From Bryum argenteum (lineage: Eukaryota > Streptophyta > Bryopsida > Bryales > Bryaceae): DNA of 64,000 nucleotides. The notes below the pieces were generated by a model. The model made no database searches. It saw nothing but the letters and a program-made list of their open reading frames with translations, and was not told the DNA's origin. Below, piece by piece: positions 7,295 through 58,700 of this stretch; within the stretch, counting starts at the first letter, position 1; each line of letters starts with the position of its first letter. Location of the stretch: positions 12,692,727-12,756,726 of the forward strand of contig CM073327.1 of the NCBI GenBank assembly GCA_037043015.1. Direction: 5' to 3'. The translations under genes and the position numbers were made by a program.

Positions 7295-7298
7295 TTAA

Positions 7299-7919
7299 CC
7301 CTTGAACGTCTGAGCGGCCCCGAGGGGGCCGTTTCCAACAGAATCTCCTCTGTAGCTCTCAATGTACTCAACTTTTCACTCATTTTTTAATGTCAAATTG
7401 GTCACAACCTCAATTCCGTTAAAATGGCACTATGCCATGTGCCATTTTGTCACATCAAATCTTACATATGCGCTCACATGGAGTGCTGTATTCTATAATA
7501 TCACATTTTTTTGATAATATAACTCCTTTATAGACATTGTCACTCATTTTATATAATATCACCTTTAAATTGTGTTATATCACATTGTTTTTGAACTGCA
7601 GTTTAGAAAGTTGAGGGGTGCCATTTTAGCGACATAATGCCATTTTAACGGAATTGGGGATTCACCTTCTTGTGATGCATTCAAAAAGTGAAATTTTAGA
7701 ATTCAAATCACAATTTGTATGAGTGATTTGTGCTTTGAAAGGATTGTGGTAGGTAGGTTGGGGTTGTACATAACCTTGTAAGAGGTTGCAAGCTCATCCA
7801 TGATTGGATCATTCATGATGCCCAAGTTCAAAAAGTGCACTATTCATGATGCCCAAGTCCAAAAGATGCTGTGATCCAATTTTGGGCTGCCCCAATCCTT
7901 ATAGCTAGACGTTTAAGGG
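7299..7919 (+). mobile_element. TTAA-flanked MITE, copy 1 (interrupted by another MITE)
   Basis: The element starts CCCTTGAACG and ends CGTTTAAGGG, and is flanked on both sides by TTAA (7295-7298 and 7920-7923). Without the nested insertion at 7405-7661 and its duplicated TCA it is 361 bp, exactly the length of copies 3 and 4. It shares the subterminal hairpin (here GGCCCCGAGGGGGCC) and the interior with copies 2-4. It has no coding capacity. TTAA targets with CCC-starting inverted repeats are the signature of the piggyBac superfamily, so I infer a non-autonomous piggyBac-like element. No transposase is present in the window. Confidence 0.75.
7405..7661. mobile_element. Nested MITE with 24-bp terminal inverted repeats inside copy 1
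   Basis: Inverted repeats at 7411-7434 (CAATTCCGTTAAAATGGCA...) and 7633-7656 match at 23 of 24 positions. Comparison with copies 2-4 gives the empty site: they read straight from GGTCA into CCTTCTT, whereas copy 1 carries about 257 extra bases here with TCA on both sides (7402-7404, 7662-7664). It is AT-rich and noncoding. The superfamily is unclear; the 3-bp duplication is not the TWA expected of PIF/Harbinger. Confidence 0.65.
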
Positions 7920-7932
7920 TTAACCCTTAAAC
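7911..7932. repeat. Perfect 22-bp palindrome at the junction of two TTAA MITEs
   Basis: The right end of copy 1 and the left end of copy 2 share one central TTAA (7920-7923), giving a perfect palindrome of CGTTTAAGGG-type ends around it. It shows that the two elements abut at a single target site. Confidence 0.8.
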
Positions 7933-8640
7933 GCCCAAGTAAACCAGAGGGGCTTGATTCCAACAAAATCTTTTCAGTAGCTCTTACTCTACTCAACTTT
8001 TCATTTATATTTTCATGTCAAACTAGTCACCTTCTGATGATGCATTCAAAAAGCGAAATTCTACAATTCAAATCACAATTTGTATCAGTGATTTTTGTGC
8101 TTTGAAAGGATTGTTGGGGTTGTACATAACCTTGTAGGAGGTTGCAAGCTCATCATTGATTGGTTCAATTATGGTGCCACAATTCAAAAAATGCACTATT
8201 CATGATGCCCAAGTCCAAAAGATGCTGTGATCCAATTTTGGGCTGCCTGATTCAGACCCCATGTACGTTTAACCCTTAAACGCCGAAGGTGACCCGAGGG
8301 GTCATGTTCCAACAGAATCTCCTATGTAGCTCTCTATGTACTCAACTTTTCACTTATATTTTGATGTCAAACTGGTCACCTTCTTCCGATGCATTCAAAA
8401 AGTGAAATTTCAGAATTCAAATCACAATTCGTATGAGTGATTTTGTGCTTTGAAAGGATTGTGGTAGGTAGATTGGGGTTGTACAATACTTGTAGGAGGT
8501 TGCAAGCTCATCATTGATTGGATTATTCATGATGCCCAAGTTCAAAAAATACACTATTCATGATGCCCAAGTGCAAAAGATGCTGTGATCCAATACCGGG
8601 CTGCCCAAATCCGTATAGCTAGGCGTTTAAGGGTTAAGGG
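7924..8640 (+). mobile_element. TTAA-flanked MITE, copy 2 (host of copy 3)
   Basis: Copy 2 begins CCCTTAAACG right after the shared TTAA. Its right terminal repeat is split: CGTTTAA is followed by all of copy 3, and the remaining GGG reappears at 8638-8640. Without copy 3 and the duplicated TTAA it is 352 bp, close to the 361-bp family length. The right flank is TTCA (8641-8644), one change from TTAA. Its interior is the family sequence, with a degenerate CCAGAGGGG subterminal motif. Confidence 0.75.
8273..8633 (+). mobile_element. TTAA-flanked MITE, copy 3, nested in the terminal repeat of copy 2
   Basis: The element is exactly 361 bp, from CCCTTAAACG to CGTTTAAGGG, with TTAA on both sides (8269-8272, 8634-8637). 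The insertion site is the TTAA embedded in copy 2's own CGTTTAAGGG end. The subterminal palindrome is GACCCGAGGGGTC. This is the cleanest copy in the cluster. Confidence 0.85.
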
Positions 8641-8689
8641 TTCAATGATCGAACCTCAGTATACAGCTGAAAATAAGCTGATTCGTTAA

Positions 8690-9050
8690 CCCTTAAAGGT
8701 CCTTCTACTCATCAATGGGCCGCCCGAAATTGGATCTCAGCATCTTTTGGACCTGGGCAACATGAATAGTGCACTTTTAGAACTTGGGCAGCATGAAGGA
8801 ACCAATCAGTGATGAGTTTGCAACCTCCTACAAGGTTTTGTGCAATCCCAACCTACCTACCACAATCCTTTCAAAGCACAAATCACTCATACAAATTGCG
8901 ATTTGAATTGTAGGATTTCACTTTGTAGATGCATCACAAAAAGGTGACCATAATGATATAAAAAAATAAGTGAAAAAATGAGAATCAAAAGAGCTACAAG
9001 AAAGATTCTCTTGGAAAACAGCCCGAGGGGCTGACAGGCGCCTTTAAGGG
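8690..9050 (-). mobile_element. TTAA-flanked MITE, copy 4, inverted
   Basis: The element is exactly 361 bp, bounded by CCCTTAAAGG and CCTTTAAGGG. Its left flank is TTAA (8686-8689) and its right flank is TTTC, a decayed TTAA. The interior is the reverse complement of copies 1-3, and the subterminal palindrome reads CAGCCCGAGGGGCTG. It forms an inverted pair with the cluster to its left, separated by about 50 bp of unrelated sequence. Confidence 0.75.
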
Positions 9051-9053
9051 TTT

Positions 9054-9808
9054 CTAAAAGAAAGAAAGAAAAGAAAATCTCGCACAATGCACTTCTGATA
9101 ACATTTGTCGTGTTTCGCAGAAAAGAACGCATCCTATAGAACATCTCATTCAACGATACTCGTCTATTAAGTATCGCATTATGCGCGCCGGCCGGACTTA
9201 TCTACCATATACTCTACACAGCCTGATCTATGCAGTGCATTGACTTTCTTAACCAGGCTTTTTGCCTTCTAGTGCCACCGGCTCCACTCAGTCGCGGGAG
9301 TACTCTAAGTTAGACCGTTGCTTTTGGAGACTGTGTGCTGGACAATCTGGACTTTCCATTTTTAGCAGAAAAGTGGGCTTGGCAGTGCCTTCCCAGATGC
9401 TTTACCATGACTTTATCTGACAAGTTTAATGATCGACGATATCGGCTGGTGGTAGAAGCCCCCGGACGAAAGTGAACAAGAATCTGTACAGACATTTCTG
9501 TACAGACATTTTCTGTACTCTGCACTATAAGACTGAAATGCCCCTCGGAGCTTTTCAGTGAGAGACATCGGTGGCCTTTGTGTGCTTTTGTGTGATGTCA
9601 GTGTTCGTTTTGTCTTGCCTCGTTGATCGGAGAGTTGTGCGAGGTGAAGGGAGTGTGGTGTGGCGAGCGTTAGTCTGCGTGATCAGAGTGTTTCGCATCA
9701 ACACTAGTGTGGATCCTGGACGTCTTGACACGCAAGCGGCCAACTATCACATTTTCCTGATCTCGAGCGGCGGCAGCAGAGCCACGGACGGGAGGGGAGT
9801 TGGAGAGA
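9054..9808. other. Upstream region of the membrane-protein gene
   Basis: No coding frame is supported. GC content rises from about 9180 onward, and the last 250 bases before 9809 are G-rich with short GTGTG runs, as expected of a 5' UTR or promoter. I see no clear TATA box. Confidence 0.35.
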
Positions 9809-11140
9809 ATGGCTCCGGGTGGCGTGTGGAGGGAGGCTTTGCTGGGGTTGGTGGTGGCGCTGTGCGTGGGAGTGGCGGCGGGAGCTCCCGCAGCCATGCA
9901 ACCCAGCAGCTCGGATGACAGTGAGGTGGGTTGTGCAAGGCCCCTTGTGGATGTGGTGTGGGGTTTTTTACTCACATTGCTTGCTCTTGTAGTTGCATTC
10001 TGGACCTCTACACAACATTATTCTCGCCATAAATTTTGGAAGATGTGGTGGTTGAGTCTCGCGATTTCTATGCCGACTATGCATCTTACATTTGTTCTTC
10101 TAAAGGCATATCTATTCACAAAAATGGTATTTCATTGCTACAAGATGAAATATGGGAAGATGAGTTTGAGACACTTGTGTTCATTGTTGAACCCATGCTC
10201 CAAATCTCCTCTACGAATCCTTTGTAGTTGTAGTATCATCATCTATATCAAGAAGAGAAATTCATCTCCTGAAGAGTTTAGTGAGAATGAAAAAAAACTA
10301 CAAGAAACATGGATATGGTTGGATGAGGTATCCATCGAGGATGAATCAGAGGGAATGGTTATAGGAGAAGATGGGTCACGAGGATCAAAAACCAAAATTG
10401 TCCAATATGAGGGAAAGCAGCTATCTTTTTATGGAACACTTGCATTGATTTGGGGACATGACTTTGATCCCAAGTGCAAAGAAAACAAATTCTTACCTGA
10501 GTATGATGAGTTGAAATACCTGAGAGGGAATTCAGGTTTTGCTATGATATCCATTGCAATTCAAGCTACAGGTTACATATATAGTGTCATATTTAGGAGT
10601 GTAAAGAACTTGAGGGTAGCACCTGTCGAAGTCATTGGTTTGATTTTTAATGTCTTACTGTTGATTGTAGCAAGTCTTTATAGTTTCTCGAATATGTGTG
10701 TGAGACCATTGATAATTTACATGGATGAAGAGCGAGAGAGGAAGTTTGTCAGTATACTCAACTCAAGACCCGAAGATCACTTTATTGGTAATTTTAATAG
10801 TGGAAAGGTTTACAATTATGGTGGAGAGATAATTTCATCATTCATTTGCATTCCAATTTTGATATATTATATCATAAGTCTAAAAAATGCCACCAATTTA
10901 ATGATCATTGTCCCCCTTGTCATTTTTGGAGTGAGTATAATATCTAGTATGTTATTCTCAATCTTTGTTGTTGGTAAATCTGGAATATTAGTGCCGAGTG
11001 TTTATCTATTATTTAATGTTTTAAGTATAGTTAGTTATGTGTGGGCATTAGTAGTCACTTTACACTATTGGGAGTCACATCACTTCGATACGCGTCCCAA
11101 ATTGTTGAACCTTTCACAAATTATTCCTTTTATTGGTTAG
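9809..11140 (+). CDS. Unrecognised multi-span membrane protein, 443 aa
   Basis: I do not recognise the family. The first ATG with a sensible N-terminus is at 9809. Residues 9-29 are a hydrophobic stretch ending in AGAPAA, a probable cleavable signal peptide. Likely membrane spans follow near 47-66, 82-105, 244-263, 273-295, 341-358, 364-388 and 393-420. A charged, mostly acidic loop (150-195) and a conserved-looking stretch around FYGTLALIWGHDFDP (207-221) separate the first spans from the rest. There are no enzyme motifs. Base composition changes sharply near 9950: the signal-peptide part is GC-rich, the rest AT-rich, which suggests either an exon-like fusion or a short captured leader. Another frame is open at 10036-10227, so a frameshift or unrecognised intron there cannot be excluded. 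The long AT-rich open frame with membrane-like composition argues that it is real. Confidence 0.55.
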   Translation: MAPGGVWREALLGLVVALCVGVAAGAPAAMQPSSSDDSEVGCARPLVDVVWGFLLTLLALVVAFWTSTQHYSRHKFWKMWWLSLAISMPTMHLTFVLLKAYLFTKMVFHCYKMKYGKMSLRHLCSLLNPCSKSPLRILCSCSIIIYIKKRNSSPEEFSENEKKLQETWIWLDEVSIEDESEGMVIGEDGSRGSKTKIVQYEGKQLSFYGTLALIWGHDFDPKCKENKFLPEYDELKYLRGNSGFAMISIAIQATGYIYSVIFRSVKNLRVAPVEVIGLIFNVLLLIVASLYSFSNMCVRPLIIYMDEERERKFVSILNSRPEDHFIGNFNSGKVYNYGGEIISSFICIPILIYYIISLKNATNLMIIVPLVIFGVSIISSMLFSIFVVGKSGILVPSVYLLFNVLSIVSYVWALVVTLHYWESHHFDTRPKLLNLSQIIPFIG

Positions 11141-29202: not shown

Positions 29203-29504
29203 GGGAGTACGTACAGTAAACCCCTGCTTTAATTCTTCGGCAGCACATTCATTGTACATCATTCATCACACATTCTTATTACAGTAGCTGCAGGTGCGAG
29301 TGTTTTTTAGCATTACGCAAATTTATTATGAGGCTGTACCATTTCAGCATTGTAGCAAAATTTTAATTCAAATTACTAACGTGCGTAACGTCCATGAAGT
29401 TGATTGTGCACATGGTCTTTTTGACAAATTGTATTGGGTTGGATCAACCTCAATCATGTTAAAGTGGCGTTTTCGGGTAAATAGTGCGTTCTGGGACGCT
29501 TTAA

Positions 29505-29738
29505 CCCTTAAACGTCAGACCCAGCCCGAGGGGTTGGTTTTTTTTTTGAGAGAATCTTGCTCATAACTTACACTCCATTATACCAAATGGAATTTTTAGA
29601 ATTCCAAAATGAGCACCTTAAAGAGATCTATACTTTCTTAGAATAAAGCTCAAGCAAATTTAAAAAAGAATAATGCTAAAAATGGAGTTTAAAATAGGTT
29701 TTGGGTGTGGTATCAGGAAAGCATATGACGTTTAAGGG
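29505..29738. mobile_element. TTAA-flanked MITE, copy 5 (internally deleted)
   Basis: A 234-bp element with perfect terminal inverted repeats (CCCTTAAACGTCA at the left, its complement at the right) and TTAA on both sides (29501-29504, 29739-29742). The subterminal CAGCCCGAGGGG motif and following GAGAATC match the 361-bp copies at 7.3-9.05 kb, but the interior differs and is shorter. It lies about 300 bp after the receptor-kinase stop codon. Confidence 0.8.
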
Positions 29739-36231: not shown

Positions 36232-38856
36232 TCAAGAGCTCTTGGTCGTGTCCGGAAACGAGTGAAACCGCAGCATCAAGGAGTTCGTAACAACAATGAT
36301 GCTGCTCATGGCCATCATGCCGCCAGCAATAGAGGGCGTGAGTGCAAAATCTTGGCTAGGGAGCAACACTCCCGCCGCGAGCGGCACCGAAACGAGGTTG
36401 TAAGCAAGCGCCCACATCAAGTTCTGGTACACTTTGTCCATAGTAGCCTTCGAAAGATCGATAGCGTCCACCACTTGGGTGAGCCGATTCCCGAGCAAAA
36501 TCACGGACGCGGCGTCACTCGCAGCGTCCACGCGCGCCTGCGTTTTGAGCGCCATGCCCACATTCGCACACGCGAGTGCCGGCGCGTCGTTCACTCCATC
36601 ACCCACCATCGCCACCGTGCGCCCACTTTCTCGTAGCTCGGTTATGGCCCGGGACTTGTCAGATGGTCTGAGACCCCCTCGGACCTCGGCTATGCCCACG
36701 AACGCGCCTACGCTCGCCGCGGCCTCCTCGCGGTCACCCGAGAGTATGACTGTGCGGTGACCGAGGCGGCTCAAGCTCGTGATCGTTTGCTTCGCGTCGA
36801 GACGGAGCGTGTCTGAGACTGAGATTGCGCCAATCACGCCGTGACCCTCCAGGCCTACGTATACTGTTGTGCCGTAGTCTGATGTGGGCAACGCGAGCTC
36901 GTCGCGCCGGGAGGGCGTGAAGTCCGCTTTGCAACAGCCACTCACCCAGTCGAAGAGGCCGACGGCTGCGATTCGGCCGTCGATCTCCGCTAGTGCCCCG
37001 TATCCTGGCTCGGTAATCTGGCCTTGCGTTGCAGGGATTTGGGTGTTCTGAGCGGTGGCGTGCGCAGTGATTGCCGTTGCGATGGGGTGCACTGTGTGAT
37101 ACTCCACTGCGGCCGCGAGGGAGAGGATTTGGTCGTGGGTGAAGGGGGGAATGGAGGTGATGCCCGCGACGGATGGGTGGCCTTCGGTCAGGGTGCCGGT
37201 TTTGTCAAAAACGACGGTGTCGACGCTCGCGAGACGCTCCAGGACGTCGCCGCCGCGGACGAGGAGGCCACGCTTCGCGCCCAGCGAGGTTCCCACGAGG
37301 ACGGCGGTCGGGGTGGCGAGCCCGAGTGCGCACGGGCATGCGACAACGAGTACGTCGATGGCGAGCTTGAGCGAGAGTAAGAGCGCGTCACAATCTGGTC
37401 CCGCCGCGTCATTGAGGAGGACATCCGGGAAGACTTTGGTCCCGAGATAGTACCAGAATGCGAAAGTGGCGCCCGAGAGTGCCATGATCGTTGCCGCGAA
37501 CGGACCCGCGATCGCGTCCGCGAGGCGCTGCACCGGCGCCTCGCGCCCCTGCGCTTGCTCAACAAGCGAGACGATTGAGGCCACGGCAGAGTTGGATCCT
37601 GTCGATTCTGCTTGGACCCTGATCGGCCCCTCCCAATTGATGGTCCCGGCGGAGACCGCGTCCCCTGTGGATTTTGCCACTGGTAAAGGCTCCCCTGTAA
37701 GCATGGCTTCCTCGACAGCGCTCCGACCGTGCACGATTTTTCCATCGACGGGGATGGTTTCCCCGGGCAATACGAGCACAGCATCACCAGGTCGGATGCG
37801 CTCCGTCTCGACCTGTAAATGGAGCCCGTCCTCAAGAACCAAACGAGACTTCGACGGTACGAGTGACAGCAACTCCTGCATGTCGCTCGAAGCTTGCGCG
37901 CGCGCCCGCGACTCAAGTGACCTACCCAGGAGCACAAACGCGAGCAACATCACGGGCTCATCGAAAAACGAAGCCTCCCAGCCCAGTCCCGGATTCGCCA
38001 GTGACATGGCGCTAATAGCGAACGCGGCGGAAGCACCCACGCCCACAAGCGAGTTCATATTTGGCGCGCGTCGCGCCAGCGCCTTAAACCCATCAACCAC
38101 GAGCTCGCGCGCCGGTCCAAGAAGAGTCACTGACGCAATTGAGCATTTCCATATGGGATTGTGGAGCAATCCCAGTACCGGACCGTGAAGATGGATACCT
38201 AGAGAGTGCAGCAGATGGATACCGTGCGAGCCGCAGCATAATGCGACTAACGACCACGCGAAGGCTACTTGCGCGGTGCTCTTGTTCAACGCCTCCCGCT
38301 TCTTGATCACACTCTCCTCACGCTTGGCGACAACACTACCCTCCTCAACTGACCGGAGCTTCGATGGAAAGCCACACGTTGTCAAGTGCGCCGCTAGCTC
38401 AGCAGTCAAATCCTCAATCGGTCTTGGATTAGGGTGGAACCGGATTGCTGCGGTTTCTGTGAGCATGTTCACCGCGGCTGTGTCGACAAATTCCTGTGAG
38501 TTCAGAAGCGATCGTACTCGCGCTACACAGCCCCCGCACATCATCCCTTCCACATCCAGGAGCACCACATCCGACGAGCCCGGCGTCGCGGCCTCCTCCT
38601 GCGCTACTTCCACTGTCTGAACCTCCCTCGCAGTCCGTAACGCCTCGCATCGCCGCCATCTCTCGCGCTCCCCCTGCGCCAATCTCACACTACAAATTTG
38701 CCCTACTCGTCCAAGCCCCTGCGCCAATCTCAAACTACGAATTTCCCCTACTCTTCTGAACCCCTGCCTCGAGAAGGGCTTGACCTGCGGCATTGGCAGC
38801 GAAGGCCTGCCATGACCACCAAGCCGCAGCGAGCACGCACGCTCCATTGCGCTCAA
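36232..38856 (-). CDS. Chloroplast copper-transporting P1B-type ATPase, PAA2/HMA8-like, intronless
   Basis: In plants PAA2/HMA8 moves Cu(I) across the thylakoid membrane to supply plastocyanin. The single open frame encodes 874 aa, a normal family length. Residues 1-95 are Arg/Ser-rich and poor in acidic residues until about 80, consistent with a plastid transit peptide; they include a 15-residue tandem duplication. The metal-binding motif is GMMCGGC (104-110). Further motifs are TGEPLP (387-392), the copper-selective CPC (507-509) followed by [18 protein letters not shown] with phosphorylated Asp551, an HP motif, and [10 protein letters not shown] (from 752). Phrases such as [18 protein letters not shown] and [19 protein letters not shown] match PAA2 rather than PAA1. 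Unlike Arabidopsis PAA2, which has many introns, this copy has none and is strongly GC-rich against AT-rich flanks. All catalytic motifs are intact. Confidence 0.95.
38671..38760 (-). repeat. 45-bp in-frame tandem duplication in the PAA2 transit peptide
   Basis: Two consecutive 45-bp units (38671-38715, 38716-38760), each starting CCCCTGCGCCAATCTCA on the plus strand, encode [13 protein letters not shown]- and [13 protein letters not shown]-type 15-residue segments. A partial third start (CCCCTGC) follows. The duplication keeps the frame. Confidence 0.85.
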
Positions 38857-39418
38857 TTTAATGCAAGCACTGCTCCATCATAGACAAATCGCCGACACAG
38901 CATGCGATTATTCGGGCAATCGGTATCCAGCTACGATTCTGAGTGAGTGAGGGGTGATTGAGGAAATTGGGTGCCTGAATCTTCACGGGTGTGGGTGGGA
39001 TCTGATCCGTTCGGAAACATTGGATATTGGATATAGGGTATTGGACAGTGACGGAGGTCAATCGGGAATTGGGTTGTGAGCAGATTCGAGGAAATACGAT
39101 GAGGAGATTCATGGCGCGAGTGTGTGGTTGCGGTTGAACTTTGGTGGGCCGCGGCCTCGCCATAGCCAGCCACGGCTGCGGTAGCCAGATGTCTTATCCG
39201 TCTGCCGTCTTTACCGTGGATACTGCATAGGTCACTACACTGAATCCTATATATAAACAATTAATGTATCATCTATGGAAAAATTCAGTTGTATCATTGT
39301 AGTCAACCTACCTGGAGAATCAAGTGGAAGTAGTTTGGTGTGTAATAACTAGAAAATAAGAGGAACTCAGAAATAGCCTTTAATTATGTAATTAGGCAAA
39401 AGAGTCGAATGGGAGGTG
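38857..39418. other. PAA2 upstream region
   Basis: This is the likely promoter and 5' UTR of the minus-strand ATPase gene. GC content falls with distance from the start codon. No specific motif, such as a GTAC copper-response element cluster, could be supported. Confidence 0.35.
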
Positions 39419-39711
39419 AGGGTTGTGCTACTCTAGCCCCTAAAGATCCACGATGTTTTGGGAGCTTGGAATCCCAACACATACCACTATGTACTAATGG
39501 GGGTACGTCCAATATTTTTGGAAATTTTTGATATTTTCAACCGTAGGATCTTGAAGTAAACTACCATTGGTAGTAGTGTGAAAATTTTCAACCGTTGGAT
39601 CATCACTAGATGTGAGATCATACCGTTTGAAGTTGACTGTAATTTTTTTTTTGCCTTGACCGCAAAAGCCGAATCGGTGGCCGTGGTCGTTTAGGGGCTA
39701 GAGCAAGCCCT
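39419..39711. mobile_element. MITE-like element with CTCTAGCCCCTAAA inverted repeats
   Basis: The left end AGGGTTGTGCTACTCTAGCC followed by CCTAAA is mirrored at the right by TTTAGGGGCTAGAGCAAGCC followed by CT, allowing a 3-nt gap. The repeat continues weakly inward (CCACG). The interior carries two forms of an internal phrase (TTTTCAACCGT(A/T)GGATC). Noncoding, and no clear target duplication. Confidence 0.5.
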
Positions 39712-42713: not shown

Positions 42714-43173
42714 CTGCGAATTGATGTGCCGATTGATGTTCCCTTTTTTTTTTTTTTTTTTTTTAAATTTTAAAACCTAAATTTATTATTCTTTTGGAAT
42801 GATGATTGGTGAAGCACAAAGATGCATTGGAGGTAAACTTCTTGGAGTGGAGCAAGTGGTGGTAAACTTCTTGGAGTGGAATCTCTTGGAGCACAAGTCT
42901 AAAAGGTATTATCATTGACTTTACTCTTGTGATTTTAAAAAGATTGAATTTAGGGTTTATAGTAGGATTTTTTTCCTACACTAAATCCTATTTTATAATA
43001 ATTTTTGAAATCTTTGTTGGATTTATAGGGTTTAGAATAGGATCTTTGTTATCCTATAATAAATCTTATATTTTTGATAACCTTCGTTGAAATTTTGTAA
43101 ACTTTATATGATTTATGATAGGATCTTCATCATCCTATCATAAATCCTACTTTTTTTATTGTCTTTTTAGACA

Positions 43174-46100
43174 ATGGCACGTGCTTTGTCTACCATTGAT
43201 AATTTTCTAGATGTCAATGTTGATAGTGTTGGATCAATGTGCATCCAATGTCCAAAATGTTTGGCATTTCGTTTTAAAAAAGAAAAAAATACCATTTGTT
43301 GTTACAATGGCAAAATTGCCAATGAACATGTTAATCACCCAATTGTCCATCCAATGCTCAATGAGCTTTATATGGGCACTACACCTAAATCTCGAGAGTT
43401 TATTAAACATATTCGAAAGTATAATCAAGCTTTTGCATTTACGAGTATGAGAAGTAAGTTTCAATCTAGCCAAGTTGAAGGTAGAGGGGTATATACTTTT
43501 CGTGTAAACGGAGAATTATGCCACCACATTGGAAATTTACAACCCGATTTAGACCAAGGTGCTAAATTTGCACAAATTTATTTCTTGGATGATGGTTTAC
43601 AAACGAATCGTCGTATGGAGATTTTTGATGATCTTCATCGTGATACTCTTAATAACATTCAAGAAGTTTTAGAATCCGTAAATACATTAGTTCGAGGTTT
43701 TAAGTCTTCGCGTGATGTTCTTCAAAGGGGATCAAACATGGGACTTCGTATCTCCGGTGAAGTTCCTTCTGGAGAACATCCCCGTCGATATAATCGCCAA
43801 GTAGTTCCAGAAGTTGCTGCTATTGTTCTTGACGAACAGTACATGAATTTAGGTAGAGATATTATTCTTCACCAACATGGTGGAAATTTACTACGAATAA
43901 AAGAAATTCACCCAGCGTACGATGCTTTATCCTATCCTTTGTTATTTCCTGAGGGACAATGTGGATGGTCACCAACTTTTAAAGCAAATACTGGAGTGAC
44001 TTTAAAGTCATATGTCCAATATTTGCTTCAAAAGCGACCGGAATCTAATGTACTACATAGGGCTGGTAGATTATTCCAGCAATATGTGGTAGATCAATAT
44101 TTACGTGTAGAACATGAAAATTTGTTATTCATTAGACAACATCAAAATGAACTTCGTGCAGAATGCTATCAGGGGATTGTAGATGCTTTGCAGGAGGACA
44201 ATAGAGCACGCATTGGGCATCGCATTGTCTTACCCGCAACATTTATTGGCTCCCCTCGATACATGCAAAAACTTTTTCATGATAGTATGGTTTTGGTTAG
44301 AGTTTTAGGAAAACCCGATTTGTTTGTGACAATGACGTGTAATCCGACCTGGCCTGAGATTCTTAATGAGCTTGAACCAGGTCAAAGTCCTCCAGATCGT
44401 CCAGATGTTGTTGTACGTGTTTTTGAACTTAAATTAAAAACTTTGATGGATGAGATTACCAAGAAGAATGTCATGGGAGAGACAATTGCTTTTTGTTACA
44501 CTATTGAGTTTCAAAACGTGGTCTTCCTCATGCACACATTCTTCTTTGGTTAAAAGACAAGGTCAATGACTGTCACCTTATAGATAGAATAGTATGTCTT
44601 TGAGATTCCCGATTTAGATAGACAACCTCAATTGTATGCATGATTGCCAAACATATGATGCATGGACCTTGTGGTTTGGACAATCCCAATTGTCCATGCA
44701 TGGAAGACAATAGTAGATGTACAAAAACTATCCTATGCAAGTTCGAGATACTACCGAGGTAGATGGTGATGGTCATGTTTTATACCGTCGTCGAAACCAA
44801 GGTCGATATGTCGAGAAACGTGTACATGGACAAATCGTTCGCTTAGACAATCGATGGGTTGTACCATACAATCCATATTTGATAGGTCGATTTAATTGTC
44901 ACATTAATGTGGAAATTTGTAGTTCGGTAAAAACAATCAAATACCTCCACAAGTATATTTTTAAAGGTCCAGATCGTGGTGTTGTAGAAACAGATGAAGT
45001 TGTAGATGAGATTAAAGACTTCTTGGAAGGTCGTTATGTGGCTGCCCAAGAAGCATGTTGGAGACTTTTTGGTTTTGAAACTAACAATAAGAGTCATAGT
45101 ATTTGTCGTTTACCCGTTCACCTTCCCCCGGTCAACAATATGTTACTTTTGAGGAGGCAACATCTTTGCAAACGGTGATTGATCAAAATGCTGAGACTAA
45201 ACTCACTAAGTTTTTTGAGCTCAATCGCCACATTCGTGCCTTGATTGCTTCTGGCAATCAAGGCAATCATATGCTTCTTCGTTACATGGATCTTCCACTC
45301 CATTACAAGTGGGATGTGAAGAAAAACATGTGGGAAAGAAGACTACGTAATATTAAAGTTTTTGGTAGGATAAATATGGTTCCCATGGGTACCGAGTATT
45401 TTACTTACGTTTGTTGTTGACTCATGTTGAGGCACCAACTTCATTTGATGACCTACTTTGTTTTAATGGTATTGTGCATTTAACGTACAAAGCCGCTTGT
45501 ATTGCAAGAGGACTTTTACATGATGATATTGAGTGGGAAAATTGTCTACAAGAGGCAACTCTCATTGCGTTGCCTAAGCAAATTCGGCGGTTGTTTGCAA
45601 CACTTCTTGTGTTTGGACAACCACTAGATCCTCTTAGTTTATTAAGGAGTCATCTTGATGCTATGTCGATGATTGGCGCAATGATCAAAATCGCTATTGC
45701 AAAGCGATTTTGTCCATTGAAGAATATTTGTCATCATCGATAAACATCTTACTGATTTTTTAATATCGAAGAATTGAATGAGTTTGGTTATCCAAACATT
45801 GTTGATGTTGGTAGTGATACCAATGACAATATTGATTTTGATAACCAAAACATTACTTTTCTAGAAGAGGATGTAGGTAGACTCAACGAAGAACAAAATA
45901 TTGTTTTTAATGCAGTGACCTCTGTTTGTTTTTAAATTCGATTCTTCAAATAGGCTTTTCTTTTTAGATGGTCCTGGTGGTACAGGTAAGACTTTTTTGT
46001 ATAACACCATATTAGGTTATCTTCGTGGTTGTAATGTCAAGTGTATGGCAATGACAACAAGTGGAATTGCCGCATGCCTTTTGAATGAAGGGCGAACGGC

Positions 46101-47220
46101 ACATTCATCTCTTGCTATTCCTTTACAGTTGCACGATGCATCAATTTGCAACATTAGTGCCCAATCTACATTAGGTCAAAGCTTACGTGAAGTACAATTG
46201 ATTGTACTTGATGAAGCTTGTGCTGGACATCGTTTTATGTATGAAGCTATAGATAGATCTTTGCGAGATATACGCGGTATAGACAGTCCAAATGGTGGTG
46301 TTGTAGTTTTATATGGTGGTGATTTTCGCCAAACTTTGCCTGTAGTTGTACGTGGAGGTCGCAAGCAAACTGTTGAGGCTTGCTTGCGACGTTCATATTT
46401 ATTTCCACTGATGCAACATTTTCATCTGACCACTAACATGCGTTTGCAAAGTCAACCGGACTTTCAACGATTTTTGCTAGATATTGTCAAGGCAAAACCG
46501 TCCAAAGGTAGATTTACCGCCCGAATTAGTTGCTTCGAAATTCTTTAGATGGTCTCATTGATGCTATTTTTGATGATCCGGTTGATTTTTCCGAACGTGT
46601 CATTTTGGTCGCTTGAAATGATGATGCTCAAGAAATCAACCGAAAAATTACCGATCGTTTACCCGGTGATGTGCATCAATGTTTTAGTGTCGACTTTGTT
46701 CACGAGAATGATGAACATGCTCATCATTATCCCGTAGAGTTTTTGAATTCTTTACAATTGAGCGGTTTGCCTCCTCACCAATTAGATCTTAAATGTGGTC
46801 AATATTTGATGTTGCTAAGGAACTTGAATCCGGCAAAAGGTTTGTGCAATGGTAGTCGTTTGCGTCTTTTGCAAGTGTCTTCCAATGTGTTGTTGTGCAA
46901 AATTGTAGAAGGACGCTATCGTAGCCAAGAGGTGTTGATTCCTAGAATCACCCATCATTGCAATGATAGCCGCTTGCCATTCACACTTTGCCGGAAACAA
47001 TTTCTGTGTCACCGGTGCTTTTGCCATGACAATTAACAAATCGCAGGGGCCAATCATATGATCGAGTCGGCATTTATCTTCGTAATGAAGTATTCAGCCA
47101 TGGTCAATTATATGTGGCATTGTCTCGTGGTAGACATCCTGCAAACATTAAGGTTGCCAATGACAACAATGAAGCCGTGAGAACGGTGAAAAATGTTGTT
47201 TATCATGAGGTTTTTACATG
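43174..47220 (+). pseudogene. Helitron Rep-helicase (RepHel), frameshifted
   Basis: This is the transposase of Helitrons: an HUH endonuclease fused to a PIF1-type helicase. The first frame (43174-44553) holds the N-terminal zinc-finger-like Cys motifs and the Helitron-like N domain. Near 44515 a one-base loss shifts the frame just before the HUH histidines. Later pieces lie in other frames: the two-tyrosine region YLHKYIFKG (near 44942), then 45103-45420 and 45411-45743. The helicase Walker A GPGGTGKT is at about 45970-45995, with the Walker B-like VLDEA near 46207. The C-terminal helicase motifs extend to a stop near 47220. In-frame stops and at least four frameshifts make it inactive as read, although several could be sequencing errors in homopolymers. 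Confidence 0.85.
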
Positions 47221-57289: not shown

Positions 57290-58700
57290 TTCTTTTTTTT
57301 TTCAATCAATGTGTTTCAGAATGCGATTTAAGGATTTGATGTAGGCTATCCATCGTAATATGGCAATGTCTGGTGAAGAACAATTTGCCACCATCCCCAG
57401 TAAAGGTAAGCAATCGGTCTCCAGCACTACCTCAGCTCCAATGAGATAGTTTCAGTCAGCTTTGATTGCTGTAAGGGCTCCCCACAATTCTCTTTTAACT
57501 TGAGGATATGCCCTTTGTCGCTCAGTCAAGATTCTAGCGCCAAATCGGATAGCAAATCGCTTTCCTTCTCCATCATCTTGTCCAATAGCCCATCCTATGG
57601 CTATTGGACTAGCGCTTCATCATCACAATGACAAGCTTCTCGCAAACGTAGTTTACTTGTTTTAAATTGGTGGTGATTCTAAAACCTTCTTTAACTTTGC
57701 CACGGCCAAGTCTTCGCTTCTTCTCTCCGAGAAACTTGTTTCTTCCTCAACAACTTGTATAGAGGCTCTGATATGTGAGCAAAGTGAGGGATCCAAATTT
57801 GGTAGAAGACACAAGCTCCTAGAAACCTCCTTACTTCAGTAATGCTTGTACAGGCTTTCATCCTGTCTATAGCATCCACCTTCTCAGGGTTAGGCTTTCT
57901 TCCGTAAGAGCCACACAAGTGTCCAACCACCAAAATTTCATCAACCCCGAACTTGGACTTGTCAATAGACAAAGTCAAATTCACATCTTGGAGTTTGCCC
58001 AAGATTTGAGCGACATCTTTGATGTGGTTATTGACAAAGGTTCTGCAACCATCAGCTTCAATGTGGCAGTCTCTCTCTTTCTCCTCGCATCCTTTAATGA
58101 GAATATCATCCACAAAAGGTATAGTTTTTTCAGGAATGAAATCTCTCAGGATCTGATTCATGGCACTTTGCATGTGTGCTACAGAGTTTGTAGCACCTTG
58201 GGGCAATGTACACATTCTCACCAATCCAAGTGGAGTCTTCATGGTTGTCAAATCTCTGCTCTCTCCGCAGCCTAATTGAAATTGATCATAACCGGAGTAT
58301 AGATCTCCAATGGAATAGATTGCATGTCCCGCAAAGGCTTGACTACTTCATCAACAATAGGACCGAGATCCTTTATTCCCGATTGTAACCTTGTTGGCAG
58401 GGTTGCATATCTTGAATGAACCTCGATCTTCCATTCTTCTTTGGTACAAGAAACCATCGGTTAGAATATGGAGCCATTGAAGGTTCGAGTATGCCCATCT
58501 TCACTTTCTCTTTCAAAAGCTCCACGAGCTTTGGAAGTAATGCCTTTCTAAGACTGTGGTATGGGTTTCAAATCCCATGGTACATGCGGTATACGTGAAT
58601 ATCACCATTGGTGCTATGATCTTTGAAATGAAACAACACATCCAATCTCATTTGGAGAAGAAGCAAAGGCCTTTGAATGTCTTGACAACATCTCTCTCTG
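57290..58700 (-). pseudogene. Retrotransposon reverse transcriptase and RNase H region
   Basis: The longest piece (57691-58251) contains the catalytic FVDDILIKG motif, preceded by LPQGATNSVAHMQ and followed by RRFLGACVFYQIW, which are reverse-transcriptase palm and thumb features. Upstream palm motifs appear in another frame near 58300-58560. RNase H-like sequence (VVLETDCLPLLGM) follows near 57400-57500. Stops and frame changes separate the parts. Confidence 0.88.

Follow-up and report, generated by a model that had tools for sequence, protein, structure and literature searches.

What are the short repeats clustered between 7.3 and 9.05 kb in a 64,000-nucleotide stretch of the Bryum argenteum genome (GCA_037043015.1, contig CM073327.1, positions 12,692,727 to 12,756,726 of the forward strand; hereafter the window), and which transposase moves them? 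An earlier note, made from the letters of the window alone, assigned four copies in this cluster and a fifth at 29.5 kb to a piggyBac-like family of miniature inverted-repeat transposable elements (MITEs). We examined this assignment in the window and in the whole genome (258.8 Mb in 25 contigs, window included). The copies are almost certainly non-autonomous piggyBac elements, that is, MITEs. Support comes from 12-bp inverted ends in the 361-bp subfamily, an exact TTAA (rarely ATAA) target duplication, thousands of such ends in the genome and the existence of 4.8-5.2-kb full-length elements, bounded by the same ends, that encode a DDE_Tnp_1_7 transposase.

Five copies in the window

The copies and their target sites are arranged as follows (window positions; divergence is measured against the consensus of 30 copies from the genome).

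7295-7298, no strand: TTAA target duplication left of copy 1, read from the sequence
7299-7919, plus strand: MITE copy 1 of the 361-bp subfamily, interrupted by a 256-bp insert; 7.2% divergence
7406-7661, no strand: foreign MITE-like insert of 256 bp nested in copy 1, with its own inverted repeats CAATTCCGTTAAAATGGCA
7920-7923, no strand: single TTAA common to copies 1 and 2, at the palindromic junction CGTTTAAGGGTTAACCCTTAAACG
7924-8272, plus strand: main part of MITE copy 2, final bases CGTTTAA; 9.7% divergence
8269-8272, no strand: TTAA left of copy 3, the same as the TTAA within the right terminal repeat of copy 2
8273-8633, plus strand: MITE copy 3, complete, 361 bp, sitting in copy 2; 3.0% divergence
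8634-8637, no strand: TTAA right of copy 3
8638-8640, plus strand: GGG, the final three bases of copy 2, severed by copy 3; the joined flanks read ...CGTTTAAGGG
8641-8644, no strand: TTCA, right target duplication of copy 2 with one change
8686-8689, no strand: TTAA left of copy 4
8690-9050, minus strand: MITE copy 4, 361 bp, both ends CCCTTAAAGG (one change); 14.8% divergence
9051-9054, no strand: TTTC, right target duplication of copy 4 with two changes
29501-29504, no strand: TTAA left of copy 5
29505-29738, plus strand: MITE copy 5, 234-bp subfamily; 15 of 234 positions differ from the genomic copy L030 on contig C1
29739-29742, no strand: TTAA right of copy 5

All five copies had been described as beginning with CCC(TTAA)ACG and ending in its complement. 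Their positions are right, but the perfect start CCCTTAAACG is missing from two of them, copy 4 and copy 1, the latter starting with CCCTTGAACG (one change). The target sites were read correctly: copies 1, 3 and 5 have intact TTAA on both sides, copies 2 and 4 on the left, with the altered right sites listed above. Copy 1 spans 621 bp, and its insert is bracketed by a 4-bp duplication, TCAC, at 7402-7405 and 7662-7665; removal of the 256 bp and one TCAC leaves exactly 361 bp, as the earlier note had it. The same length, claimed for copies 3 and 4, was found in both, but in copy 4 it is partly coincidence, because its alignment to the consensus contains 13 gap blocks. Copies 1-3 are oriented alike and copy 4 is opposite. 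Copy 5 represents a separate, shorter subfamily with the same ends as the 361-bp copies.

The description of four clustered copies holds for their places and requires one correction, since copy 2 is broken in two by copy 3. The latter lies exactly inside the TTAA of the right end of copy 2 and thereby provides a natural empty site: CGTTTAA stands to its left, TTAAGGG to its right, and the joined flanks restore CGTTTAAGGG, a normal right end. Because the flanks rejoin in this way, TTAA is the target and it is duplicated. Copy 3 is also the least diverged of the four clustered copies, which fits its later insertion into copy 2.

When the window was searched with CCCTTAAACG at up to one mismatch, 10 matches were obtained, nine of them ends of these copies and one, at 39688, unrelated; none of 100 shuffles reached 10, so chance does not account for them. 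The window frame at 9761-11137 gave no Pfam match.

Ends and target sites across the genome

Genome-wide, CCCTTAAACG occurs 6,752 times (573 for the reversed control) and TTAACCCTTAAACG 5,945 times (four for the reversed control). TTAA thus precedes 5,945 of 6,752 ends, i.e. 88%, or about 96% if the 573 reversed matches represent chance background. ATAA is a minor target: ATAACCCTTAAACG was found 68 times against 14 for its reverse, and two transposase-bearing elements (E076 and L077) have ATAA on both sides. Among the first eight ends fetched regardless of TTAA (L001-L008, all on contig C1), five had TTAA and three had other flanks, namely TTAC at L001, TTTT at L005 and AAAA at L008; L008 is the far end of an element whose near end, L007, has TTAA.

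Used as a genome query, copy 3 gave 2,445 first-look candidates, 40 of which were scored. The 30 best copies, copy 3 included, were fetched, and every one is 361 bp long and bordered by TTAA left and right, the sequence further out being unrelated. The flanks lay outside the query. The 12-bp inverted end CCCTTAAACGCC is present at the left of 29 of these copies and its inverse at the right of all 30. They differ from their consensus by 1.4% on average, a value biased low because the copies were picked by similarity to copy 3. The 361-bp element is short, non-coding, numerous, even in length and bounded by inverted ends, as MITEs are. The earlier note had proposed to verify TTAA duplication on genome-wide flanks and on empty sites; the counts given here, together with the empty site that copy 2 provides for copy 3, bear it out.

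The terminal repeat CCCTTAAACG contains TTAA and TTAA borders each insertion, so one element can easily come to lie within or next to another; each insertion supplies new targets, which would favour clusters such as that at 7.3-9.05 kb. In this cluster, copies 1 and 2 would have come to abut through one TTAA, and copy 3 would have jumped into the end of copy 2 later. Such arrangements occur across the genome: back-to-back pairs on one TTAA (CGTTTAAGGGTTAACCCTTAAACG) occur at 34 places, each on both strands (control 0), and CGTTTAACCCTTAAACG, where an element follows CGT as if placed in the end of another, occurs 114 times (control 0), part of these being ordinary targets that happen to follow CGT.

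The same left end, CCCTTAAACG, also bounds a group of 971-973 bp on contig C1 (L002, L026, L034 and L038) that is flanked by TTAA left and right and whose interior is unrelated; its right end has one change (CCCCTAAACG in L026).

Transposase-bearing relatives of the MITE

A search of the genome for PF13843 (DDE_Tnp_1_7) gave 776 first-look candidates. All 116 that were scored exceed the curated Pfam cut-off; 93 are free of internal stops and 23 contain one or two. Since 116 of 776 candidates were scored, these totals are lower bounds and the scored domains are likely the best preserved ones.

Some of these domains belong to elements with the ends of the MITE. Four loci that have a left end but lack a right end close by were read further downstream. 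One of them, L037, leads into E037, an element of 4,817 bp bordered by TTAA left and right. Its right end is imperfect, with two changes, and its PF13843 transposase is decayed, matching in two frames (E 6.6e-18 and 8e-30). At L003, L014 and L036, no right end was found at up to two mismatches in the 5.5-6.5 kb searched, which consist of rough joins of neighbouring pieces. A DNA search with the coding stretch of E037 gave 112 first-look candidates, of which 40 were scored, yielding 42 matches. The element at L074 (E074) is better preserved: it measures 5,191 bp, has perfect ends and TTAA on both sides, and contains an 897-aa open frame matching PF13843 positions 1-349 (E 1.4e-82). L075 has a 730-aa frame and is 97.6% identical to L076 over 4.1 kb.

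Compared with solved structures, the 897-aa frame matches the piggyBac transposase of T. ni (6x67, E 2e-29) and piggyBat (E 7.7e-24). Aspartates stand opposite D268, D346, D447 and D450 of 6x67 (residue numbers counted off the printed alignment), and D268, D346 and D447 form the DDD catalytic triad of the T. ni enzyme. Both the 897-aa and the 730-aa frames close with a CxxC..CxxC..CxxxC..H stretch, a candidate for the cysteine-rich domain at the C-terminus of piggyBac transposases; in the 897-aa frame it is aligned with piggyBat, and it was not seen in the 831-aa frame of a second lineage treated below. In the scanned frames of elements with these ends, DDE_Tnp_1_7 was the only Pfam transposase. 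The search for an autonomous partner, suggested in the earlier note, has thus led to PF13843, and piggyBac membership stands on TTAA flanks throughout the genome together with transposase elements having the same ends. Contrary evidence named there, i.e. genome-wide copies with other flanks or a Tc1/mariner or PIF partner, did not turn up; a few elements use ATAA.

Upstream of the transposase there is a frame of about 140 aa (L074 4516-4917, minus strand; L075 1144-1563, plus strand), conserved by eye across diverged elements. A Pfam scan of the 140-aa and 134-aa upstream frames gave no match; the frame may be a first exon or a second protein. The query P0001 had no match among IMG/VR viral contigs.

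The MITE and the large elements are connected by more than their ends. With small mismatches allowed, three left-end blocks lie at identical offsets in the MITE consensus, E037, E074 and E076: CCC(1-2 bases)GGGG at 21, TGTAGCTC at 53 and GTCAAACTGGTC at 94. A right-end block, GGGCAGCCC, lies at 28 in all four. L075, read at its left end, has the left blocks as well, and the second-lineage element EB has none of the four. Of the window copies, 1 and 3 carry the full set of four, copy 2 carries three (its right block being placed at 22, as its final six bases lay outside the stretch compared), copy 4 two and copy 5 the first only. Left-end alignments of the MITE with E037 and with E076, and the right-end alignment with E037, were each equalled by none of 300 shuffles, the first 10 bases being kept in the left-end ones. 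The same holds for one end of a 596-bp relative (L007) aligned to the left ends of E037, E074 and E076 (0/300 each).

Because four subterminal blocks occur at identical offsets in the MITE and in three transposase-bearing elements, one transposase lineage probably moves both. Identity of offsets seems to us a stronger argument than pairwise score. By the mechanism we propose, transposase from intact elements would bind the common ends and subterminal blocks of the MITE, excise it cleanly by the piggyBac route and join it to a new TTAA target; judging from the common ends and block offsets, the MITE would be moved in trans by its autonomous relative. Binding of both ends, clean excision and joining to TTAA are general piggyBac behaviour.

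Several observations weigh against this interpretation. By score, similarity of the MITE to E074 is weak (8 of 300 shuffles as good at the left, 27 of 300 at the right), and at the right end the score is not significant outside E037 (11/300 for E076). A fifth motif, AGCATCT, has offset 50 in the MITE and 39 in both E074 and E076, and E037 lacks it. The 234-bp copy 5 has only its ends and one block in common with the large elements. The domain search counts transposase domains, not complete elements; five transposase-bearing elements were read to both ends (E037, E074, E076 and two of the second lineage), L075 and L079 at their left ends only. PF13843 was found in none of 14 control genomes, but these also lack the LOB domain, which is plant-specific, and hence include no plant control; since none matched LOB, they say nothing on other plants. 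Finally, transposition itself is what we infer.

Activity, rival explanations and known systems

Is the system still alive? A second, younger piggyBac lineage covers L077, L078, L079, L080 and L081. Open frames of 831 aa are present at L077 (contig C8), L078 (C9) and L079 (C7). L077 and L078, located on two chromosomes, are 99.79% identical over the 5.7-kb element, and L077 and L079 are 99.76% identical over the 4.6 kb compared. The 831-aa and 897-aa proteins share 41% identity over 434 aligned residues. TTAACCCCTAAAGGCCC occurs 669 times in the genome (control 0). The 100 matches listed, from C1 and part of C2, include 37 pairs of neighbouring ends that face inward, spaced 260-265 bp in 22 cases, 578-580 bp in two and 5,692-5,708 bp in 13. 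These sizes fit complete elements on the one hand and, on the other, a MITE of even length (about 261 bp). From the common 17-base end pattern we infer that the short forms would have arisen from the long ones by deletion. The near-identity of its copies (99.8% across 5.7 kb) and a 261-bp MITE of its own indicate recent activity of this lineage.

The most serious alternative, though an unlikely one, is that nothing but fossils remains of the large elements and that the MITEs have long been immobile. Window copies lie 3-15% from the consensus and the frames of E037 are broken, as would be expected of fossils. This is difficult to reconcile with the absence of stops inside the match in 93 of 116 top-scoring domains, with the likeness of L075 and L076, and above all with the second lineage, its nearly identical copies on two chromosomes and 13 of 37 listed end pairs spaced 5,692-5,708 bp. 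We lean, with some reserve, towards a land plant with currently active native piggyBac, where at least two transposase lineages each have a high-copy MITE; piggyBac would then be a leading DNA transposon superfamily here, and plants would have their own native equivalent of the piggyBac tool known from animals.

It is very improbable that the MITEs come from another TTAA-specific superfamily, such as Kolobok or Sola3, and that the piggyBac transposases of the genome are unrelated to them. TTAA alone names no superfamily, as Kolobok makes TTAA duplications too (PMC9587614; statements on cited papers refer to the parts of their texts available to us). Kolobok termini, however, are 5'-RR...YY-3' (PMC9587614), whereas those found here are CCC...GGG, and Kolobok is rejected on that ground. 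PiggyBac termini are 5'-CC...GG-3' (PMC10045372), and such termini with short inverted repeats are present in the 361-bp subfamily (CCCTTAAACGCC) and in the second lineage (CCCCTAAAGGCCCA). Moreover, elements with the very same ends and subterminal blocks encode PF13843.

We give next to no credence to the notion that TTAA belongs to the terminal repeat and the true duplication is TA or TAA (Tc1/mariner, PIF/Harbinger) or 8-10 bp long. The MITE, nearly always accompanied by TTAA, might be read so. Yet CGTTTAAGGG is recovered at the site of copy 3 in copy 2 only when the duplication is taken to be TTAA, E076 and L077 are flanked by ATAA on both sides, and beyond TTAA no common duplication is visible by eye in the flanks of the 30 fetched copies; the empty site and the two-sided ATAA dispose of all three variants. 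Contamination from an animal or fungus, conceivable insofar as the superfamily is best known from animals, is just as implausible and is rejected in view of the spread of transposase domains and MITE copies over each of contigs C1-C11, of plant-type LOB domains (22 matches in the genome) near transposase domains, e.g. at a distance of about 33 kb on C3 and of 115 kb on C8, and of the nesting of copy 3 in another copy inside the window.

Contig C1 (44.09 Mb) is poor in TTAACCCTTAAACG, with 94 of 5,945 occurrences against about 1,013 expected by length, and has five of the 116 scored piggyBac domains and none of the 22 LOB matches. One guess would be that C1 is a sex chromosome or some other chromosome of a special kind. 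Elsewhere in the window, an 881-aa heavy-metal-type P-type ATPase is encoded at 36232-38877 (minus strand) in one open frame with no introns; we take it to resemble plant PAA2. Together with the LOB domains it suggests a land-plant host, probably a non-flowering one given how few LOB matches there are. Sequences at 43171-46548 (plus strand) and 57691-58347 (minus strand) look, by eye, like pieces of Helitron Rep/helicase and a Ty3-type reverse transcriptase.

Plant MITEs of the Stowaway and Tourist types have Tc1/mariner or PIF/Harbinger partners and TA or TAA targets. The Bryum MITE resembles them in being short, numerous, even in length, bounded by inverted ends and, presumably, moved in trans, and differs in its target and its transposase. 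With T. ni piggyBac (6x67/6x68) and piggyBat (9c0f), the system shares the PF13843 domain, TTAA duplication, CC...GG termini, the aspartates described above, and short inverted ends with asymmetric subterminal blocks. Unlike these, it resides in a plant, its elements are about 5 kb long as against 2,472 bp for T. ni piggyBac (PMC10140906), the N-terminal part of its transposase is long and matches nothing in Pfam, and it has the upstream frame of about 140 aa, a large MITE load and now and then ATAA as its target. In Acropora corals, CMITE (PMC2872659) is likewise a MITE group tied to piggyBac-like elements, and it forms tandem arrays; its host, however, is an animal and its interior is more conserved than its ends, whereas here the link consists of ends and four block offsets.

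The earlier note considered piggyBac very rarely reported from land plants, which agrees with older literature and less so with recent surveys. In the part available, a 2008 paper (PMC2528002) names five plant superfamilies, piggyBac not among them, and a 2014 plant paper, in its available part, omits it too. PiggyBac is listed, on the other hand, in all groups studied in a 2015 survey (PMC4438587), and PMC10813416, PMC8086355 and PMC10140906 mention it in "plants" generally, with no worked-out plant system in the parts available. For the fern Ceratopteris richardii, a repeat table (PMC6890710) lists 1,230 pieces with 122,417 bp (0.00%) in its PiggyBac row, the same annotation type in a land plant, whereas Bryum has complete elements with open transposase frames. 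Literature matches for "piggyBac" in Niphotrichum turned out to be the word "piggybacking". No intact or active native piggyBac, nor piggyBac MITEs, were described from a land plant in the literature searched, which lay outside most subscription papers and Bouallegue et al. 2017.

The superfamily is therefore known and already appears in plant surveys; the surprise lies in the host, the copy number and the recency. Apparently intact, near-identical copies make it testable whether piggyBac is mobile in plants that have received no foreign transposase, how MITEs come to outnumber piggyBac, and whether it was inherited vertically or acquired by horizontal transfer. Plant genome engineers would also have an interest in an endogenous plant transposase that excises cleanly at TTAA.

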